From the NCBI RefSeq assembly GCF_900129775.1, contig NZ_FQWV01000001.1, positions 455,780 to 519,779 of the forward strand: a DNA stretch of 64,000 bases, written 5' to 3'. The notes below the pieces were generated by a model. That model searched no databases, was not told where the DNA came from, and saw only the letters and a program-made list of their open reading frames with translations. Position numbers and translations under genes: made by a program. Shown here piece by piece: positions 42,180 through 51,642 of this stretch (positions within the stretch are counted from its first letter, which is position 1; every line of letters begins with the position of its first letter). Origin of the DNA: Halobaculum gomorrense. GTDB lineage: Archaea > Halobacteriota > Halobacteria > Halobacteriales > Haloferacaceae.

Positions 42180-43346
42180 ATGACAGGAGTCCGAGTCGCG
42201 GGCGTCGGTCTCACCCCCTTCGGGGCGCACGAGGGCCGGACGGGTCGCGACCTGTTCGCGGAGGCGGCGCTCGCGGCACTCGACGACGCCGGCGTCGCCG
42301 GCGACGACGTGGAGCACCTCAACTACGGCAACTTCATGGGCGCGCTCGCGGAGCGACAGGGCCACCAGGCGCCGCTGATGGCCGAGGCGGCCGGCCTGCG
42401 GTGTGCGGGCACGCGCTACGAGGAGGCGTGCGCCTCCGCCGGCGTGGCGGTCCGCGAGGCCGTCCGCGCGGTCCGCTCGGGCGAGAACGACGTGCTGCTC
42501 GCAGGCGGGATGGAGCGCATGACCAACCTCTCGACGGCGGAGGTGACCGAGTCGCTGGCGGTCGCCGCCGACGAGCTGTTCGAGGTGCGCGCGGGCGTCA
42601 CCTTCCCCGGCGCGTACGCGCTGATGGCGCGGGCGTACTTCGACGAGTACGGCGGCGACCGCGAGGACCTGGCGCACGTCGCGGCGAAGAACCACGCGAA
42701 CGCCGTCCCCAACGAGTACGCCCAGTACCAGCGCGAGATCACCGTCGAGGAGGCGCTCGACTCGCCGGCGGTCGCCTCGCCGCTGCACTTGTTCGACGCC
42801 TGCCCCATCACCGACGGCGCGAGCGCGCTCGTGCTCGTCTCCGAGGAGTACGCCGAGGCGCACGACATCGCCGCACCCGTCGCCGTCACGGGGACCGGGC
42901 AGGGCGGCGACCGCGCGGCCCTGCAGGACCGTGCGGACATGGCCTGCACGCCCGCCGCGGCCGACGCGGCCGCCGAGGCGTACGCCGACGCGGGTGTCGA
43001 CAGTGACGACGTGGACGTGGCGGAGGTCCACGACTGCTTCACCATCGCCGAGGTGCTGGCGCTGGAGGCGTTGGACTTCTTCGACCCCGGCGAGGCGGTC
43101 GGCGCCGCCCGCCGCGGCGACACGACCCGCGACGGCGACCTCCCGGTGAACCTCTCGGGCGGCCTGAAGGCGAAGGGTCACCCAGTCGGCGCGACCGGCG
43201 GGTCGCAGATCGCCGAAATGACGCGCCTGCTGCGCGGCGATCACCCCAACAGCGACGCCGTGCCCGACGCGACCGTCGGGCTCACCCACAACGCGGGCGG
43301 AACGGTCGCCAGCGCCGTCGTCCACGTGCTGGAGGTGGCCGAATGA
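42180..43346 (+). CDS. thiolase family protein (acetyl-CoA acetyltransferase type)
   Basis: 388-residue thiolase of the archaeal SCP-x-like class. The nucleophile is Cys in RYEEACASAGVAV, the first catalytic His is in EVHDCFTIAE, and the closing region has LSGGLKAKGHPVGATGGSQI with the second His. It would condense or cleave acyl-CoA with acetyl-CoA. Its stop overlaps the DUF35 gene (ATGA). In archaea thiolase-DUF35 pairs form one complex, with HMG-CoA synthase or without it. Here no HMG-CoA synthase is adjacent, and the neighbours are beta-oxidation genes, so a catabolic role is likely. Confidence 0.92.
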   Translation: MTGVRVAGVGLTPFGAHEGRTGRDLFAEAALAALDDAGVAGDDVEHLNYGNFMGALAERQGHQAPLMAEAAGLRCAGTRYEEACASAGVAVREAVRAVRSGENDVLLAGGMERMTNLSTAEVTESLAVAADELFEVRAGVTFPGAYALMARAYFDEYGGDREDLAHVAAKNHANAVPNEYAQYQREITVEEALDSPAVASPLHLFDACPITDGASALVLVSEEYAEAHDIAAPVAVTGTGQGGDRAALQDRADMACTPAAADAAAEAYADAGVDSDDVDVAEVHDCFTIAEVLALEALDFFDPGEAVGAARRGDTTRDGDLPVNLSGGLKAKGHPVGATGGSQIAEMTRLLRGDHPNSDAVPDATVGLTHNAGGTVASAVVHVLEVAE

Positions 43347-43738
43347 GCGACGCCGACCCCGAGGCACCCGCAAACACCGGGTACGACGAGTGGGTCGACG
43401 CGCTCGCCGAGGGCGGCTACTTCATCGAGTGCGCGAACGGCCACGGGAGCCTCCCGCCGCGGCGCGTCTGCCCCGAGTGCGGCAGCGTCGACCTCTCGGA
43501 GGAGTCGCTGCCGGAGACCGGCGAGGTCGCGACGTTCTCGGAGATTCACGTCGCGCCCTCCGGGTTCGGCGAGGAGCCGCCGTACGTCACCGCCGTCGTC
43601 GACTTCGGCCCGGTTCGGGTCACCGGGATCGTCCGCGATCTGTCGGCCGACGAGGTCGAGATCGGCACCGCCGTCCGGCCGGACGCCGAGGAGAACGGCG
43701 CGAGTGAGAACCTGGTGGTCGTGTTCCGGCCGGTCTGA
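43343..43738 (+). CDS. Zn-ribbon OB-fold (DUF35) acyl-CoA partner protein
   Basis: 131-residue partner of the upstream thiolase. The N-terminal helix ends in a rubredoxin-like zinc ribbon. The only visible Cys pair of C-x-x-C type is RRVCPECGS, with IECANGHG supplying a further Cys and His. The OB-fold half is ETGEVATFSEIHVAPSGFGE and PYVTAVVDFG. In the thiolase/HMG-CoA synthase complex DUF35 forms the CoA-binding bridge. Start ATG overlaps the thiolase stop by four bases. Confidence 0.93.
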   Translation: MSDADPEAPANTGYDEWVDALAEGGYFIECANGHGSLPPRRVCPECGSVDLSEESLPETGEVATFSEIHVAPSGFGEEPPYVTAVVDFGPVRVTGIVRDLSADEVEIGTAVRPDAEENGASENLVVVFRPV

Positions 43739-43780: not shown

Positions 43781-44752
43781 CTACCCGCCGTCCTCCTGCT
43801 CCACGGTCACGGTCGCGTCGGGTCGTTCGCCGGCGACGACGCCGACGAACTGGTCGCCGAACTCGACGTGGGGAAGCAGCATCGCGTCGTCGAACACGAC
43901 CAACTCGCAGCCGGCGGCGTCCGCGAGGTCGCGTCCCTCGGCCAGCGGCGGGAGGTCGGCCTCGCGACCCCACACGATCGTCGTCGGCACGTCGAGGGCC
44001 GCGAGCGCGTTCGCGAGGTCCACGTCGCTGTTGAGGAACCCGGAGACGAACGACGCGGGGGCGAAGCGGGCGTTCTCTTGGTGGGTCGTGCGCCACTCGT
44101 AGTCGGGCCAGTCGTCGCCCGCCTTCTCGGGGTCCCAGTAGCCGTGGTCGGCGTTGAAGTACGCGATCGAGGGCTTGGACGCGAGGAGGCCGAACACCGC
44201 GTCGCCGACGATCGGCGCCCGGATCAGTTCGCGGACCGCCGGCTTGGGCGGGTCGGGACCGGCGACCGCGGTCGGACACACGAGCGTGAGGTCCGCCAGG
44301 TCGAGGCCGTCGGCGACGCCGACGACGTACGCCGCCGTCAGCGACGACGCGACGACGCGCTGTCCGTCGTACCCCGTGAGGAAGTCGCGGACGAAGTCCT
44401 CGTATAGCGCCGCCGAGTAGCGCAGCGGCGGGCGGTCTGACCGGCCGAATCCGGGGAGATCGGGGGCGACGACGTGGTACTCATCGGCGAGGTCCGCGAA
44501 CACCTCGCGCCACTCGCCCGCCGAGCCCGCGGCGTTGATCCCGTGGAGCAGGACGACCGTCTCGTCGTCCTCGTCGCCGGCTTCCGTGTAGGCGATGTCC
44601 ATCCCGCGCCAGCGGGAGGTGCGTTTCCGGCCGTCGAGCGGCGGTTCGAGTTCGCCCGCTTTCGCGCGAAGCGCGCGCGTCGCGGCGACGGTGAAGCCGG
44701 CGCCGAGCGCGGCGTATTTGAGCGTCGAGGAGAGCGTCGATCGAAGTGTCAT
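43781..44752 (-). CDS. alpha/beta hydrolase with atypical nucleophile elbow
   Basis: 323 residues. A short N-terminal hydrophobic stretch (TLKYAALGAGFTVAATR) precedes the fold. The oxyanion segment is VVLLHGINAAGSAGEW and the second motif PDLPGFGRSDRPP. The nucleophile elbow is VVASSLTAAYV, lacking both glycines of G-x-S-x-G. The final His is in MLLPHVEFG. Thus a serine hydrolase is probable but the elbow is unusual. ACTAAGTTC on the minus strand supports the ATG. It converges with the DUF35 gene. Substrate unknown; it may hydrolyse acyl esters in the lipid island. Confidence 0.8.
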   Translation of the reverse strand: MTLRSTLSSTLKYAALGAGFTVAATRALRAKAGELEPPLDGRKRTSRWRGMDIAYTEAGDEDDETVVLLHGINAAGSAGEWREVFADLADEYHVVAPDLPGFGRSDRPPLRYSAALYEDFVRDFLTGYDGQRVVASSLTAAYVVGVADGLDLADLTLVCPTAVAGPDPPKPAVRELIRAPIVGDAVFGLLASKPSIAYFNADHGYWDPEKAGDDWPDYEWRTTHQENARFAPASFVSGFLNSDVDLANALAALDVPTTIVWGREADLPPLAEGRDLADAAGCELVVFDDAMLLPHVEFGDQFVGVVAGERPDATVTVEQEDGG

Positions 44753-44934: not shown

Positions 44935-46005
44935 CTACAGCGGTTCCTTGCCGTCGACGATCCGCAGACACCGCTGAGCGAGCGCCGGCACCCGCGTCTC
45001 CATCGTCGGGTACAGCGGGTCGTCGCTGTTGCCCTCCAGGTACCGCCGGTAGAACATCTCTCCGAGCGCCGCGAGCTTGTACACCGCGAGCGTCCGGTAG
45101 AAGCGGTCGCGCTCGTAGTCGATCCCGGTCGCCTCCTCGTAGCGCGCGACCAGACCCCGTCGGCTCGGGTACCCGTCGCGCTCCATGAACGTCGAGGTGA
45201 GCTCCGGCGTCGCGGGCGCAGGATCGCCCGGGTCGCGCCAGAAGGAGAGCATCCAGCCGAGGTCGGTAAGGGGGTCGCCCAGCGCCGACAGCTCCCAGTC
45301 GAGCACGGCGACCAACTCGGGCGGCGTTCCGGGCGCGAACATGACGTTGTCCAGCTTGTAGTCGCCGTGGACGAGCGCGTGGTCGTGGTCGGCGGGGACG
45401 TTCGCCTTCAGCCACTCGGTGACCTCGGCGATCTCGGGCACCTCGCGGTCCTCAGCGGTCACCTCGAACGCCCACTGAAACTGCTTCGCCCAGCGATCCA
45501 CCTGGCGCTCGGTGAAGCCGGCGGGGCGGCCGAAGTCGCCGAGGCCGACCGCCTCGGGGTCGACCGCGTGGACCGCCGCGAGGCCGTCGACGAGCTTCTC
45601 GCCGACGCGGCGGCGGTGTGCGGGCGCGGCGAACCGCTCGGGCTCGTCGTCACGGAGCACGTCGCCCGGAGTTCGATCCATCACGTAGAAATCCGAGCCG
45701 AGCACGTCGCGGTCGTCGCACGCGAGCACCGTCTCGGGCAGCGGGACGGCGGTGTCCTGGAGCGCGTCCATCACCCGGTACTCGCGGAGCACGTCGTGGG
45801 CGGTCTCGGCGGTCTCTCCCGGCGGTGGCCGGCGGATCACGAGCTCCCGGTCGCCGTAGGTGACGAACAGCGTCTCGTTGGAGTGGCCCGCCGGGTGGCG
45901 GCGCACGTCGAACGCGTCGGCGGGCCCCAGCTCGGTCGCGAGGTACGAGCGGAGGCGCTCGGGGTCGACGAGCCGCCGGACGTACGCCTCGGAGTCGTCG
46001 GACAT
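44935..46005 (-). CDS. ACAD10/11-type phosphotransferase (APH fold)
   Basis: 356-residue kinase-fold protein. The glycine-rich HPAGHSNETLF and the VIRRPPPG lysine-region come first. The catalytic loop is VHGDYKLDN (Asp215, Asn220) and the metal loop LDWELSALGDPLTDLGW (Asp236). These segments closely resemble the phosphotransferase domain of mammalian ACAD10/ACAD11 and bacterial LvaA, which phosphorylate hydroxyl groups of hydroxyacyl-CoAs. It is divergent from an ACAD10/11-like dehydrogenase across a 72-bp region. Its TATA position (about 46032) falls in the loop of a palindrome. Substrate is inferred. Confidence 0.88.
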   Translation of the reverse strand: MSDDSEAYVRRLVDPERLRSYLATELGPADAFDVRRHPAGHSNETLFVTYGDRELVIRRPPPGETAETAHDVLREYRVMDALQDTAVPLPETVLACDDRDVLGSDFYVMDRTPGDVLRDDEPERFAAPAHRRRVGEKLVDGLAAVHAVDPEAVGLGDFGRPAGFTERQVDRWAKQFQWAFEVTAEDREVPEIAEVTEWLKANVPADHDHALVHGDYKLDNVMFAPGTPPELVAVLDWELSALGDPLTDLGWMLSFWRDPGDPAPATPELTSTFMERDGYPSRRGLVARYEEATGIDYERDRFYRTLAVYKLAALGEMFYRRYLEGNSDDPLYPTMETRVPALAQRCLRIVDGKEPL

Positions 46006-46022
46006 GCGGGTCGGTTGCACAC

Positions 46023-46044
46023 CCCCCGGCAAAAGCGCCGGGGG
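46023..46044. promoter_or_regulatory. palindrome CCCCCGGC-N6-GCCGGGGG between divergent genes
   Basis: Eight-base perfect arms (46023-46030 and 46037-46044) flank AAAAGC. The A/T-rich loop is about 27 bases from the phosphotransferase start on the minus strand, and the right arm ends about 33 bases before the dehydrogenase start. A regulator bound here would control both genes. Confidence 0.5.
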
Positions 46045-46077
46045 TAGTGTTTTGGCGCCGCGGTCGGTGGCGACGGT

Positions 46078-47301
46078 ATGGAGTACGACGACAGCGAGGC
46101 CGCGCGCGCGCTCGCCGAGCGGACGCGCGAGTTCGTCGACGAGGAGGTGATCCCCGTGGAGCGGGAGGTGCTCGGGGACGGCCCCGTGAGCGACGAGCGG
46201 CTCGCGGAGCTCCGGGAGACCGCACGCGAGTACGACGTGTTCTGCCCGCAGATTGGCGAGGAGTTCGGCGGCATGGGGATGGCCTTCCGCGACGTGCTTC
46301 CCATGTTCGAGCAGGCGGGGCGCTCGCTGCTGGGCGCGTCGGCCTGCCGCGTCGACGCCCCTGACGAGGGCAATATGCACACGCTGGAGCTGTTAGGCAC
46401 CGACGAGCAGCGGGAGCGGTGGCTCCGACCGCTCGTCGCCGGCGAGGTCTCCTCGGGGTTCTCGATGACCGAGCCCATGCAGGGCGGCGGCTCCGATCCG
46501 AAGATGATCTGCACGAGCGCCGAGCGGGAGGGTGACGAGTGGGTCATCGACGGTCACAAGTGGTGGACCACCGGCGGAAGCGAGGCGGACGTGCTCATCG
46601 TGATGGCCCGTACCGATCAAGACGCGCACCCCTACGAGGGCACGTCGCTGTTCCTCGTGCCCGCGGATACGTCGGGGGTGAACGTCGTCCGCGACATCCC
46701 CCACGTGGGTGGCGAGGTGACCGGCGTCGGCCACGCCGAGATCGAGTACGACGGCGTTCGCGTCCCCGAGGAGAACCTCCTCGGGACCCTGAACGAGGGG
46801 TTCGCCCACGCACAGCAGCGCCTCGGCCCTGCCCGTCTGACCCACTGCATGCGCTTCGCGGGGATGGCCGAGCGCGCGCTCGACGTGGCGAAGGCGTACA
46901 CGAGCGAGCGCGAGGCGTTCGGCGGGCCGATCGCCGACAAGCAGGCCGTCCGTCACGAGGTCGCCGACGCGGAGACGGAGCTGCACGCCGTGCGGACGAT
47001 GGTGCGCGACGCGGCCGACCGGATCGACCGCGGCGAGGAGGCGCGCGTGCAGGTGGCGATGAGCAAGAACTTCGCGGCCAACACGGTCCAGGAGATCGTC
47101 GACGCCGCGCTCCAGCTGTGCGGCGCCAACGGGATCGGGAAGGACCTCCCGATCGGCGACTTCTACGAGGCGGTCCGGCAGTTCCGCATCATCGACGGCG
47201 CCGACGAGGTCCACCGGCGTGTCATCGCCCGCGACGCCTTCTCGGACATCGACGAGTCGGAGCTGGCGAACGTCACCCGGTACGGCGAGCCGACCGAGTA
47301 G
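46078..47301 (+). CDS. acyl-CoA dehydrogenase, ACAD10/11-like
   Basis: 407-residue flavoenzyme. The FAD region has FSMTEPMQGGGSDP and NGHKWWTTGGS. A later section, RLGPARLTHCMRFAGMAERAL, AFGGPIADKQAVRHEVADAE and GADEVHRRVIA, is characteristic of ACAD10/11 and LvaC-like enzymes. At the position where ordinary enzymes have the catalytic Glu (YEGT), this protein has IIDGADE (Asp373). ACAD11-type enzymes process 4-phosphorylated acyl-CoAs, and that could apply here. Divergent from the phosphotransferase, with a GTGTTTTGG promoter-like element about 27 bases upstream. Confidence 0.93.
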   Translation: MEYDDSEAARALAERTREFVDEEVIPVEREVLGDGPVSDERLAELRETAREYDVFCPQIGEEFGGMGMAFRDVLPMFEQAGRSLLGASACRVDAPDEGNMHTLELLGTDEQRERWLRPLVAGEVSSGFSMTEPMQGGGSDPKMICTSAEREGDEWVIDGHKWWTTGGSEADVLIVMARTDQDAHPYEGTSLFLVPADTSGVNVVRDIPHVGGEVTGVGHAEIEYDGVRVPEENLLGTLNEGFAHAQQRLGPARLTHCMRFAGMAERALDVAKAYTSEREAFGGPIADKQAVRHEVADAETELHAVRTMVRDAADRIDRGEEARVQVAMSKNFAANTVQEIVDAALQLCGANGIGKDLPIGDFYEAVRQFRIIDGADEVHRRVIARDAFSDIDESELANVTRYGEPTE

Positions 47302-47407
47302 CCGGCTCGCGGTGACCCCGCGGTCGGCGCGCCGCCCCGCCGGGCGCGGGACCGCCGCGGGCGAACCGCCGCCCCGATTTTTGTCCCCCGCGGGCGACCG
47401 GACGTCC

Positions 47408-48268
47408 ATGGTGGGACTCGACGCGGACCACGAGGCGTGGACGGCCGCCCAATCGGAGACGACCGTGGCTGTCGACGGGCGTGAACTCGACGTGGCGTAC
47501 TACGAGGCCGGGCGCGACAACGACGGCCCGCCGGTGTTCTTCCTCCACGGGATCCCCACGTGGTCGTTCCTCTGGCGCGGGGTCGCCCCCGCGGTCGCCG
47601 AGGACCGCCACGTGATCGCCCCAGACCTCGTCGGCTACGGCAACTCCCAGCGAAGCGACAACTTCGACCGGTCGGTCAGGGCCCAGACGAGCGTCCTGGC
47701 GGACCTGATCGCGGAGGCGCCCGCCGCCGAGGTGGACCTCGTCGCCCACGACATCGGGGGCGGCGTCGCCCTCCGGTACGCGGCTGCCCGTCCCCAGCAG
47801 GTCAGGACGCTCGCGCTGTCGAACGCCGCCTGCTTCGACTCGTGGCCGGTGGAGTACATTAACTCCCTCGGCGTGCCCGGCGTGGTCGAGGGCTGGGACG
47901 ACGCCGCGTTCGAGGAGAACATGGCGTTCCTCTTCGAGGAGGGTGCCCACGGCGAGGCCGACCCGGCGTTCGTCGCGGGGATGAAGGCGCCGTGGGAGCG
48001 CGAGGGCGGCCGGACGGCGCTCGCGCGGGCGGCGGTCGCGACGAACACGAACCACACGACCTGCATCGACTACGGCGCGATCACCGCCGAGACGCTGTGT
48101 CTGTGGGGGGCCGACGACGTGCTCCAGCCGATCGACAACGCCGATCGCCTCGCCGACGCCGTCGCCGGCGACGCGACCGTCATCGGCCTCGACGACGCCT
48201 ACCACTGGGTCACCCACGACCGGACCGAGGCGTACCGCGAGGAGCTGCGGGCGTTCCTGACGAACTGA
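47408..48268 (+). CDS. alpha/beta hydrolase, haloalkane dehalogenase-like
   Basis: 286 residues with the Asp-nucleophile arrangement. The loop is HGIPTWSFLWR and the elbow AHDIGGGVA has Asp115 instead of Ser, as in haloalkane dehalogenases and epoxide hydrolases. The final His is probably His266 in AYHWVTHD. It could hydrolyse a C-O, C-halogen or phosphate-ester type bond. In this island, removal of a leaving group from an acyl-CoA intermediate is conceivable but unproven. It has its own CGATTTTTG promoter element (about 47375-47383) giving a leaderless ATG at 47408. It lies between the two acyl-CoA dehydrogenases. Confidence 0.88.
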   Translation: MVGLDADHEAWTAAQSETTVAVDGRELDVAYYEAGRDNDGPPVFFLHGIPTWSFLWRGVAPAVAEDRHVIAPDLVGYGNSQRSDNFDRSVRAQTSVLADLIAEAPAAEVDLVAHDIGGGVALRYAAARPQQVRTLALSNAACFDSWPVEYINSLGVPGVVEGWDDAAFEENMAFLFEEGAHGEADPAFVAGMKAPWEREGGRTALARAAVATNTNHTTCIDYGAITAETLCLWGADDVLQPIDNADRLADAVAGDATVIGLDDAYHWVTHDRTEAYREELRAFLTN

Positions 48269-48335
48269 TTCGAGGGCGACGGAGGGCGGCGGGAACCGGC
48301 GGTGGCTATATGTCAGTGGGACCGAACCCCCCGCC

Positions 48336-49484
48336 ATGTCGTTCCAGCTGTCGAGCGAGCAGGAGGCGATCCGCGACGTGGTCCGGGAGTTCGGCGAGAA
48401 CGAGATCCGACCCGTCGCGCGCGAACACGACGAGTCGCGCGAGTACCCGCACGACCTCGTCGAGGAGGCCGCGCAGTACGACCTCGTTGCGCCGACGATC
48501 CCCGAGGAGTACGGCGGCGCGGGCATGGACCTGCTGACCTCGGCGGTCGTCACCGAGGAGCTGTGGCGCGCGGACCCAGGGATCGGCTCGGCGATCGGCT
48601 CGCGCGGCTTCGGCACCTCGATGATCCAGCAGTTCGGCGACGAGTGGATGAAAGAGGAGTGGCTGCCGGCGGTCGCCGCCGGCGACGCGGCCACCTGCTC
48701 GTGCATCTCCGAGCCGGCCCACGGCTCCGACGTGGCGGGCATCGAGACCCGCGCCGAACGCGACGAGGACGCCGGCGAGTGGGTGCTCAACGGCGACAAG
48801 ATGTGGATCACGAACGGGACGATCGCCGACGTGGCGGTCGTGATGGCGAAGACCGCCCCCGGCGAGCGCCACCGGGGGATCACCGCGTTCCTCGTCGAGG
48901 CCGACCGCGAGGGGTTCGAGCCGACGAAGATCGACAACAAGCTCGGCATCCGCGCGTCGGATCTGGCCGAGATCCGGCTCGACGACGTGCGCGTCCCAGA
49001 GGAGAACGTGATCGGGGCAGTCGATCAGGGGTTCTACCAGCTGATGGCCTTCTTCGCGGGTGGCCGCACCTCGGTGGCGGCGCAGGCGGTCGGCGCCGCG
49101 CAGGGCGCGCTTGACGCGGCCGTCGAGTACGCCGGCGAGCGCGAGCAGGGCGGCCAGAAGATCAACGAGTACCAGGCCATCTCCCACAAGATCGCCGAGA
49201 TGGCCACCGACGTGGAGGCGGCGCGCTCGCTCGTCTACCGCGCGGCGTCGGTCGTCGACGAGGGCGGGGACGACCAGCTGGCCGCGAAGTTCGCGTCGAT
49301 GGCGAAGCTGTTCGCCTCCGAGCGCGCCGTTGAGGTCGCCGACGAGGGGATCCAGGTCCACGGCGGCGCCGGCTTCGTCACAGACCACCCCGCCGAGCGA
49401 TTCTACCGCGACGCGCGCATCACGAAGATCTACGAGGGCACCTCCGAGATCCAGAAGAACATCATCTCCGACCAGGTGTTGTGA
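48336..49484 (+). CDS. acyl-CoA dehydrogenase, classical type
   Basis: 382-residue FAD enzyme introducing the alpha-beta double bond in acyl-CoA. The FAD motifs are CSCISEPAHGSDVAG and MWITNGTIADVAVVM, and a central AVEYAGEREQGGQKINEYQ follows. A normal catalytic Glu367 lies in KIYEGTSEIQKN, in contrast to the ACAD10/11-like gene upstream. Closely resembles short/medium-chain family members. GGCTATATGT (about 48304-48313) is a clear TATA box about 27 bases before the ATG. It probably supplies the following beta-oxidation step. Confidence 0.95.
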   Translation: MSFQLSSEQEAIRDVVREFGENEIRPVAREHDESREYPHDLVEEAAQYDLVAPTIPEEYGGAGMDLLTSAVVTEELWRADPGIGSAIGSRGFGTSMIQQFGDEWMKEEWLPAVAAGDAATCSCISEPAHGSDVAGIETRAERDEDAGEWVLNGDKMWITNGTIADVAVVMAKTAPGERHRGITAFLVEADREGFEPTKIDNKLGIRASDLAEIRLDDVRVPEENVIGAVDQGFYQLMAFFAGGRTSVAAQAVGAAQGALDAAVEYAGEREQGGQKINEYQAISHKIAEMATDVEAARSLVYRAASVVDEGGDDQLAAKFASMAKLFASERAVEVADEGIQVHGGAGFVTDHPAERFYRDARITKIYEGTSEIQKNIISDQVL

Positions 49485-49637
49485 GGGCGCCGCGGGTCGC
49501 GGTCCCCGCAGCCCCCGGGATTGATGTGACGCGCTCCCCGAATCGCGGGCGATGTTCGAATCCCCGCCTCGGGACGGCTCGACGACGCACGCCACGCGGA
49601 CACCCGCGAACCGGACGCAGGCCACGGGGTGGACGGC

Positions 49638-50480
49638 ATGAGCGACGCCGCGGCCCGCCTCGCCGAGCGCTTCTCGATTTCGGACTCCACCGCGGTGATC
49701 ACCGGCGCCTCCAGCGGCATCGGTCGGGCGATCGCCGAGGAGTTCGCGGCCGACGGCGCCGACGTGGTCGTCTGCTCGCGCGAGCAGGGGAACGTCAACC
49801 CCGTCGCCGAGGAGATCAACGAGACCGAGGAGGCGGCCGCCGACACGGACGGCGGCGCCGAGACGGGCGCGGACGCCGCCCGCGGCCGCTGTCTCGCCGT
49901 CGAGTGCGACGTGACCAACCGCGACGCCGTCGACGCGCTCGTCGAGGCGACCGTCGAGGAGTTCGGCGGGATCGACGTGCTCGTGAACAACGCGGGCGCC
50001 TCTTTCATGGCGCCGTTCGAGGACATCTCCGCGAACGGCTGGAAGACCATCGTCGACATCAACCTCCACGGCACGGTCCACTGCACGCAGGCGGCGGGCG
50101 AGCACCTCGCCGACGGCGGCGGTGCGGTCGTCAACCTCGCGAGCGTCGCCGGGCAGCGCGCCGCCGAGTACATGAGCCACTACGGCGCCGCGAAGGCGGG
50201 GGTGATCAACCTCACCGAGACGCTCGCGCTCGAGTGGGCCGGCCGTGACGTGCGCGTCAACTGCATCGCCCCGGGATTCGTGGCGACGCCGGGCGTCGAG
50301 CAACAGATGGGCGTCTCCGCCGACGAGGTCGACCGCGACGACGTGGACCGCAGGATCGGGACGAGCGAAGAGATCGCCGACATCGCTCGGTTCCTCGCGA
50401 GCGACGCGGCGAGCTACATGACGGGTGAGACGGTCGCCGCGCAGGGTGTCCCGCAGGGCGAGGAGCTTCCGCAGGCCTGA
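49638..50480 (+). CDS. short-chain dehydrogenase/reductase
   Basis: About 280-residue Rossmann oxidoreductase. The cofactor motif is TGASSGIG. A low-complexity Asp/Glu/Ala insert follows beta-strand 2 (about residues 55-90). NNAG is in VLVNNAGAS, the catalytic Ser in LASVAGQ and Tyr-x-x-x-Lys in HYGAAKAG. The C-terminal region is CIAPGFVATPG. It would oxidise or reduce a hydroxy/keto group, compatible with the 3-hydroxyacyl step or with LvaD-like dehydrogenation. The start ATG at 49638 is three codons inside a GTG frame. Last gene of the acyl-CoA island on this strand. Confidence 0.9.
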   Translation: MSDAAARLAERFSISDSTAVITGASSGIGRAIAEEFAADGADVVVCSREQGNVNPVAEEINETEEAAADTDGGAETGADAARGRCLAVECDVTNRDAVDALVEATVEEFGGIDVLVNNAGASFMAPFEDISANGWKTIVDINLHGTVHCTQAAGEHLADGGGAVVNLASVAGQRAAEYMSHYGAAKAGVINLTETLALEWAGRDVRVNCIAPGFVATPGVEQQMGVSADEVDRDDVDRRIGTSEEIADIARFLASDAASYMTGETVAAQGVPQGEELPQA

Positions 50481-50698: not shown

Positions 50699-51544
50699 CT
50701 ACCCGTCGCGAGAGGCGTCGACGACCTCGTAGCCGACAGCAGTCTCGCGGAGGCCGTCGGCGTGCGCGGACAGTTGCCCGGCGACGACGACGAGCACCAC
50801 GTCGAGCCCGCGCATGGCGGCCTCGCGGACGGCATCGACCGTGCCGAAGCGCACGTCCGGCTCGCGGTCGAACCGCCTGACCGCGGCCACCGCCTCGGTT
50901 CCGGCGGCGACGACGAGGTCCGCGTCGGCCGCGAGGTCGCGCAGGCGCGCAGGGTCGACCGCGCCGCTGCCTCCGTCGCGGACCGCGGGGACGGCGACGG
51001 CTGTGACGGCGCCCAGCTCGTAGTCGACGACGCCGTCGAACTCGGCGACGCCCACGTCGCGCCCCGACTCGGCCGAGGTGACGGCCGCCGCGGTGGCGCC
51101 GCCGGCGTCGGCGGAGCCGGAGTCAGCGGCGGCGACGCTGCGCGCGTGGAGGACCCCGTCGCGCATCGACAGGGCCACGCGGTCGCCCTCCTCGACCGGG
51201 CCGTCCGCGAGGGCTGTCTCGACTTCCACGTCGCCGAGCACGTCGCTGGTGACGTGATCGAGGTACTCGTTGAGCTCGTCGGTGCGGGAGATGAGCCAGT
51301 CGACCCCTTCCTTCGTGACGCGGTACCGTCCGCGCCCCTCGCGGTCGACGAACCCGCCCTCCGCGAGGTCGCCGAGGTGTTCGGAGACCGCCTGCGCGGT
51401 GACGCCGATGGCGTCGGCGATCTCGCGCTGGCTCACCGCGGGCTGTCGTTCGGCGATCTCGACGAGGATCCGGTAGCGCGTCGCGTCTCGCTTGTGTCGG
51501 AGGACGCCGAGCCCGGCGTCGCCGTCCGTGGCGTCGTCGCTCAC
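50699..51544 (-). CDS. winged-helix transcriptional regulator with C-terminal ligand-like domain
   Basis: 281 residues. The N-terminal HTH (about residues 10-80) shows RILVEIAERQPAVSQREIAD, IGVTAQAVSEHLGDLAEGGF and GRYRVTKEGVDWL, of the MarR/ArsR-like haloarchaeal type. The C-terminal half has two nucleotide-binding-like stretches (VDYELGAVTAVAVPAV, DADLVVAAGTEAVAAVRRFD, GLDVVLVVVAGQL), suggesting a small-molecule sensor. GTG at 51544 is favoured over GTG at 51562 because CCTATTTGTT on the minus strand lies about 27 bases before it. It may regulate the adjacent acyl-CoA island, but that is only proximity. Confidence 0.78.
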   Translation of the reverse strand: MSDDATDGDAGLGVLRHKRDATRYRILVEIAERQPAVSQREIADAIGVTAQAVSEHLGDLAEGGFVDREGRGRYRVTKEGVDWLISRTDELNEYLDHVTSDVLGDVEVETALADGPVEEGDRVALSMRDGVLHARSVAAADSGSADAGGATAAAVTSAESGRDVGVAEFDGVVDYELGAVTAVAVPAVRDGGSGAVDPARLRDLAADADLVVAAGTEAVAAVRRFDREPDVRFGTVDAVREAAMRGLDVVLVVVAGQLSAHADGLRETAVGYEVVDASRDG

Positions 51545-51642
51545 GGTCGATGGAGCGGCCACAGGAACAAATAGGGTTGCGGTCCGCCGCCCGATATCGC
51601 GGCGCTGAGCCGATCGACCACAAACGAAGTTGCGCTCTGCGG

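Follow-up and report, generated by a model that had tools for sequence, protein, structure and literature searches.

A divergent kinase and acyl-CoA dehydrogenase-like gene pair in haloarchaea as a probable module for hydroxyacyl-CoA phosphorylation and phosphate elimination

Do archaea dispose of hydroxyl groups on acyl-coenzyme A (CoA) thioesters by phosphorylating them? The question is raised by a 64,000-nucleotide stretch of Halobaculum gomorrense DNA (assembly GCF_900129775.1, contig NZ_FQWV01000001.1, positions 455,780 to 519,779 of the forward strand; the window). Here, a gene for an APH-family kinase (positions 44935 to 46005, minus strand) and a gene for an acyl-CoA dehydrogenase (ACAD) homolog with Asp at the catalytic position (46078 to 47301, plus strand; ACADx) start back to back, separated by 72 bp (46006 to 46077). 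In ACAD10 and ACAD11, a kinase domain phosphorylates 4-hydroxyacyl-CoAs, and the ACAD domain then expels the phosphate (PMC12440821, PMC11342911). A reading of the sequence alone had proposed such a pathway from the kinase, the dehydrogenase with Asp373, an Asp-type hydrolase, an ACAD with Glu367, a short-chain dehydrogenase/reductase (SDR), and an upstream thiolase-DUF35 pair, and we confirmed every one of these genes at its position.

We consider it likely that the kinase and ACADx form an ATP-dependent module that phosphorylates hydroxyacyl-CoAs and eliminates the phosphate, feeding beta-oxidation. The kinase, of the LvaA or ACAD10/11 kinase-domain type, would be the hydroxyacyl-CoA kinase, and ACADx would be a flavin adenine dinucleotide (FAD)-dependent 4-phosphoacyl-CoA phosphate eliminase. 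As far as we found, experiments have demonstrated this route in mammals and Proteobacteria alone, and the open-access literature yielded no archaeal report of it. If the assignment is correct, hydroxy fatty acid phosphorylation also takes place in archaea, in roughly half of the sampled haloarchaea; there, annotation of the two genes goes no further than "phosphotransferase family protein" and "acyl-CoA dehydrogenase family protein."

Co-occurrence and signature residues of the pair

We surveyed 292 Halobacteria genomes for ACADx (E ≤ 1e-100) and the kinase (E ≤ 1e-90), which were present in 144 and 143 genomes, respectively. Both genes occurred together in 143 genomes and neither in 148, with one discordant genome (G224; phi = 0.993), and every kinase-positive genome was ACADx positive. 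Such counts lie very far from what chance would produce; the Fisher value takes no account of relatedness, yet both states were seen inside single genera (e.g., g2). Gene neighborhoods were compared at 80 kinase loci plus that of Haloferax mediterranei, with neighbors called within ∼8 kb at identity thresholds of 25 to 60%. These loci fall into 43 genus groups, which partly overlap since metagenome-assembled genomes were counted apart. The divergent, adjacent kinase-ACADx pair was found in 24 of the 43 groups.

The ACAD domain of mouse ACAD11 was rebuilt from a PDB alignment (chain number plus 1 gives the published residue number) and then aligned with ACADx. Residues R248, R253, H256, R259, and D373 of ACADx align to R626, R631, H634, R637, and D753 of the mouse enzyme. 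According to modeling, mouse R626, H634, and R637 bind the 4-phosphate beside the catalytic D753; substituting these residues abolishes or impairs the second step, and conventional ACADs are without them (PMC12440821). The R-R-H-R-D signature, whose Asp lies within FRIIDGADEVH, was found in the window ACADx and in every haloarchaeal ortholog aligned (29/29 others in the tree set), and the five positions were invariant in a separate 15-sequence alignment. Glu-type ACADs from the same loci have FRVQE, TRIRE, CRIGE, and the like at these positions, and the R248/H256/R259 phosphate clamp never occurred complete in the Glu-type ACADs compared. Bacterial kinase-linked ACADs also carry RRHRD. The signature may offer a clear sequence rule by which candidate phosphate eliminases can be told apart from true dehydrogenases in genomes with many ACAD genes; the window's genome alone encodes about nine ACAD relatives, one of them of the ACADx type. 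At the same positions, a Thioclava ACAD (L123, 3944 to 5116) that branches just outside the motif clade has SRHRD, possibly as an intermediate or as an enzyme for a different phospho-substrate, and a Rhodococcus DK17 sequence has Gly at the catalytic position.

The kinase belongs to the APH family (PF01636; E = 2e-50 in Pfam), with 9o56, 3dxp, and mouse ACAD11 as its nearest solved relatives, and is the sole full-length APH match in its genome. It has the alpha-C pair R74-E75, the CoA-site R167, the catalytic D215, N220, and the metal-binding D236. The corresponding ACAD11 residues (alpha-C Arg-Glu, R176, D220, N225, and D240) are kept in 81 of 82 haloarchaeal kinase open reading frames, the remaining one being a fragment that is gapped there; the outgroup 9fsg has L-Q in place of the Arg-Glu pair. 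The alpha-C Arg is R84 of ACAD11 by our count and R86 in the published numbering.

Phylogenetic placement and fold

All RRHRD sequences formed one clade (support, 100/99) in a 61-row ACAD tree, among whose rows LvaC and ACAD10 were not included. One part of this clade, core A (100/100), holds mouse ACAD11, 4hr3, and sequences from Burkholderia, Deinococcus, Rhodococcus RHA1, Methylobacterium, Ruegeria, and Haematobacter. Its sister group comprises the haloarchaeal family (100/100) together with Georgenia, Sphingobium, Acinetobacter, Sulfitobacter, Variovorax, Rhodococcus USK13, and Pseudosulfitobacter. To see whether the motif itself drives this grouping, we reran the tree with the signature helix and the D373 region deleted, and the motif-bearing rows still fell on one side of a branch (Shimodaira-Hasegawa-like approximate likelihood ratio test, 99); long branches were flagged in both trees. 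Since core A and the haloarchaeal group split, ACADx groups with ACAD11-type enzymes as a sister subfamily and is not nested in the mouse ACAD11 core. Judged by the refutation test that the sequence-only reading had set itself, the dehydrogenase falls outside the ACAD10/11 core.

The nearest nonarchaeal branches to ACADx in the tree are kinase-linked ACADs from Georgenia, Sphingobium, Acinetobacter, and Pseudosulfitobacter (35 to 44% identity). Like ACADx, these have a PAR(L/M)xH-type motif, and all four loci contain an adjacent kinase and an SDR gene, but unlike in haloarchaea, the genes are in a same-strand order. More generally, bacterial relatives in both subclades have a kinase gene beside or near the ACAD gene, often with an SDR gene. 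When 247 genomes from across the phylum were sampled, the strong matches, among those listed, came only from the window's own order. Four to six strong matches to ACADx were found in each of several haloarchaeal genomes (G198, G058, G085, G109, G167, and G287), which suggests paralogs with different substrates.

The top PDB sequence matches of ACADx were 4hr3 and mouse and human ACAD11, and the same three structures were the best PDB matches when its AlphaFold model was searched with Foldseek. The model has a predicted local distance difference test score (pLDDT) of 82, with lower values near D373 and at residues 132 to 143. These fold matches lend weak support to kinship with ACAD11, as other ACADs score close behind.

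Proposed reaction and competing explanations

Modeled on ACAD10/11 chemistry, which is itself proposed in detail rather than fully proven, the kinase would use ATP to phosphorylate a hydroxyacyl-CoA at its hydroxyl group, with C4 the most likely position. ACADx would hold the resulting phosphoacyl-CoA through R248, H256, and R259 while D373 takes the alpha proton (C2), and FAD would be used only transiently, with phosphate lost and hydride returned. The expected product is a 2-enoyl-CoA, formed with neither net oxidation nor an electron acceptor, that ordinary beta-oxidation (hydratase, 3-hydroxyacyl-CoA dehydrogenase, and thiolase) would take onward. The linked SDR (49638 to 50480, plus strand, three genes 3′ of ACADx) probably supplies the hydroxyacyl-CoA, starting from a keto precursor, or oxidizes a later intermediate. 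This kinase-plus-eliminase logic, put forward from the sequence alone, is supported by the invariant clamp and Asp of haloarchaeal ACADx, the retained ACAD11 kinase residues, the near-perfect co-occurrence, and the linkage to SDR, FadB-type, and MaoC genes.

A source of 4-hydroxy acids is known in one haloarchaeon: H. mediterranei converts gamma-butyrolactone to 4-hydroxybutyrate units of polyhydroxyalkanoate (PMC3880725), and therefore such hydroxy acids enter a haloarchaeal CoA pool. Because this species puts 4-hydroxybutyrate into bioplastic, a drain on 4-hydroxyacyl-CoA would matter for polymer engineering, and H. mediterranei is also a tractable host for testing the pair, which it carries on plasmid pHME132 (E6P09_RS18925 and E6P09_RS18920).

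The haloarchaeal pair shares with ACAD11 and ACAD10 the kinase and ACAD families, the catalytic Asp, the R/H/R clamp, and the kinase catalytic and CoA-site residues, but its genes are separate and divergent rather than fused, and its ACAD belongs to the sister subfamily. With LvaA, LvaC, and LvaD of Pseudomonas putida it has in common separate kinase and ACAD genes, an SDR partner, and a beta-oxidation context, whereas the lva genes form one operon. Separate genes had been offered as the novelty of the locus; this arrangement was already known from LvaA and LvaC in bacteria, and lvaABCD homologs have been reported in Alpha-, Beta-, and Gammaproteobacteria (PMC6692424). The domain of life is new as far as we found, and the subfamily and gene layout are distinct, with chemistry that is, by strong inference, the one already known.

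Several points weigh against this assignment. For the sister subfamily to which ACADx belongs, we are aware of no activity measurement on any member. In the kinase tree, the haloarchaeal kinases stand apart from ACAD11 and the bacterial kinases (96/91), although the root is unreliable (support, 63/64) and the outgroup branches are very long. The AlphaFold model of the kinase has a pLDDT of 45. At 33 kinase loci, ACADx is missing from the flanks covered, though the pair goes together genome-wide. Finally, ACADx is only ∼33% identical to mouse ACAD11 (BLAST), whereas LvaC is 56 to 62% identical to ACAD10/11 (PMC11342911).

The pair could also carry out the same two-step chemistry at another position or on another skeleton, such as 5-hydroxy or methyl-branched or isoprenoid-derived hydroxyacyl-CoAs from the breakdown of archaeal lipids or carotenoids. 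A distinct sister subfamily would fit such a shift, as would the up to six copies in some genomes, which suggest several substrates. We nevertheless think it unlikely, as ACADx has exactly the clamp by which ACAD11 positions the 4-phosphate, ACAD10 gives phospho-intermediates from 4-hydroxyhexanoate and not from 5- or 6-hydroxyhexanoate (PMC11342911), and the gamma-butyrolactone taken up by H. mediterranei is a 4-hydroxy precursor (PMC3880725).

Levulinate, which the sequence-only reading had named for growth tests alongside 4-hydroxy acids, is one possible substrate only, and a doubtful one. On the pattern of the lva operon of P. putida, the SDR would reduce levulinyl-CoA, the kinase would phosphorylate 4-hydroxyvaleryl-CoA, and ACADx would eliminate the phosphate. 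The kinase, ACAD, and SDR do make up an LvaA, LvaC, and LvaD set, in which LvaD reduces levulinyl-CoA (PMC6692424), and the SDR co-occurs with the kinase across the 292 genomes (phi = 0.73, with the SDR set resting on a chosen E-value cutoff). However, 15 kinase-positive genomes are without the SDR and 24 genomes have it without the kinase, its sequence similarity is generic, and H. mediterranei combines the cassette with a FadB-like gene and an annotated long-chain fatty acid-CoA ligase, which points to longer acids. An LvaD-like 4-oxoacyl-CoA reductase is a plausible role for the SDR; alternatively, it could be a 3-hydroxyacyl-CoA dehydrogenase.

We give rather little credence to a broader version, in which the haloarchaeal clade is a separate phospho-elimination branch for archaeal or hypersaline substrates (e.g., the branched or tertiary hydroxyacyl-CoAs that isoprenoid lipids or bacterioruberin would yield) and phosphorylation is a general haloarchaeal means of removing hydroxyls that block beta-oxidation. 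That ACADx is an ordinary dehydrogenase with an Asp base, coincidentally linked to a kinase for an unrelated small molecule, is highly improbable: neither its Pfam domains nor its general fold set it apart from any other ACAD and APH kinases serve many substrates, but the two genes co-occur almost perfectly even when nonadjacent, three clamp residues accompany the Asp that are never found together in the Glu-type ACADs compared, and the kinase is likewise linked in bacteria of both subclades.

Recurrent partners and neighboring genes

Besides ACADx, the genes near the kinase include those for an SDR (22 genus groups), a FadB-like protein (16 groups), a HAD-family hydrolase (15 groups), a winged-helix regulator (15 groups), and MaoC (12 groups). 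The SDR gene lies directly beside ACADx in many relatives. The HAD-family count was obtained at a loose threshold and includes H. mediterranei (pHME132; L111, 9228 to 9950) and 36 other loci; no such companion was found in the window's genome, where the best match was 31% identical. The HAD gene near some haloarchaeal kinases recalls the HAD domain of ACAD10, and this domain restrains the ACAD10 kinase (PMC11342911). In the H. mediterranei protein, the first motif (DIGG) retains just the first Asp of DxD, which agrees with the description of the ACAD10 HAD domain. A histidine phosphatase accompanies the kinase-ACAD system of Pseudomonas citronellolis (PMC6692424), and on a Deinococcus grandis plasmid an annotated phosphoglycerate mutase gene adjoins the kinase (L119, 9389 to 10087). 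Recurring phosphatase-fold partners may mean that phosphoacyl-CoA levels need control, a hypothesis at this stage. An LLM-type-looking oxidoreductase (flavin/F420-like, judged by eye) is also encoded near the kinase at 31 loci in 15 genus groups (e.g., L071, 4491 to 5567).

The alpha/beta hydrolase downstream of ACADx (47408 to 48268, plus strand; HGIPTWS, VAHDIGG) has an Asp nucleophile whose position in the VAHDIGG elbow is conserved among its homologs. It had been cast as a dedicated part of the pathway, a role that we rejected as unsupported: its co-occurrence with the kinase is weak (phi = 0.40, again with a chosen E-value cutoff), it is linked to the kinase in only four genus groups, and a Halobaculum relative (G183) keeps it at 81% identity without the kinase, ACADx, or the SDR. 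Haloalkane dehalogenases stabilize the halide through an Asn or Glu in HGxP and a Trp after the nucleophilic Asp. The window hydrolase has Ile at both sites (HGIPTWS, HDIGG), and no Asn/Glu or Trp was present there in any homolog examined; with these residues missing, an assignment as haloalkane dehalogenase was also rejected.

Next comes a classical ACAD (48336 to 49484, plus strand), with Glu367 in YEGTSEIQ, which provides a beta-oxidation context but whose linkage is lineage specific. On the other side of the pair, the SCP2-like thiolase (42180 to 43346, plus strand) and its OB-fold/DUF35 partner (43343 to 43738, plus strand) lie upstream, the thiolase being linked to the kinase mainly in Halobaculum. 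A Ser-type alpha/beta hydrolase gene (∼43781 to 44752, minus strand), overlooked in the sequence-only reading, lies between thiolase-DUF35 and the kinase, 3′ of the latter and on the same strand; Halobaculum-type loci are the only ones in which it was seen close to the kinase. Genes for ribosomal protein L10e, NucS, PGK, GAPDH, and MutL are located nearby, and the window DNA is probably chromosomal. The kinase of a near relative, Halobaculum saliterrae, is 91% identical to that of the window.

Positioned 3′ of the SDR gene (50699 to 51562), a gene for a winged-helix protein with a C-terminal DUF7839 domain also occurs in two other Halobaculum loci (L031 and L077), and its product is a possible regulator of the cluster. 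A GGGGGTA(C/G)TGTTTT-like element 5′ of ACADx recurs in Halobaculum relatives (L002 to L005, L031, and L077), and the kinase-ACADx spacer (46006 to 46077) also contains an inverted repeat, CCCCCGGC..GCCGGGGG.

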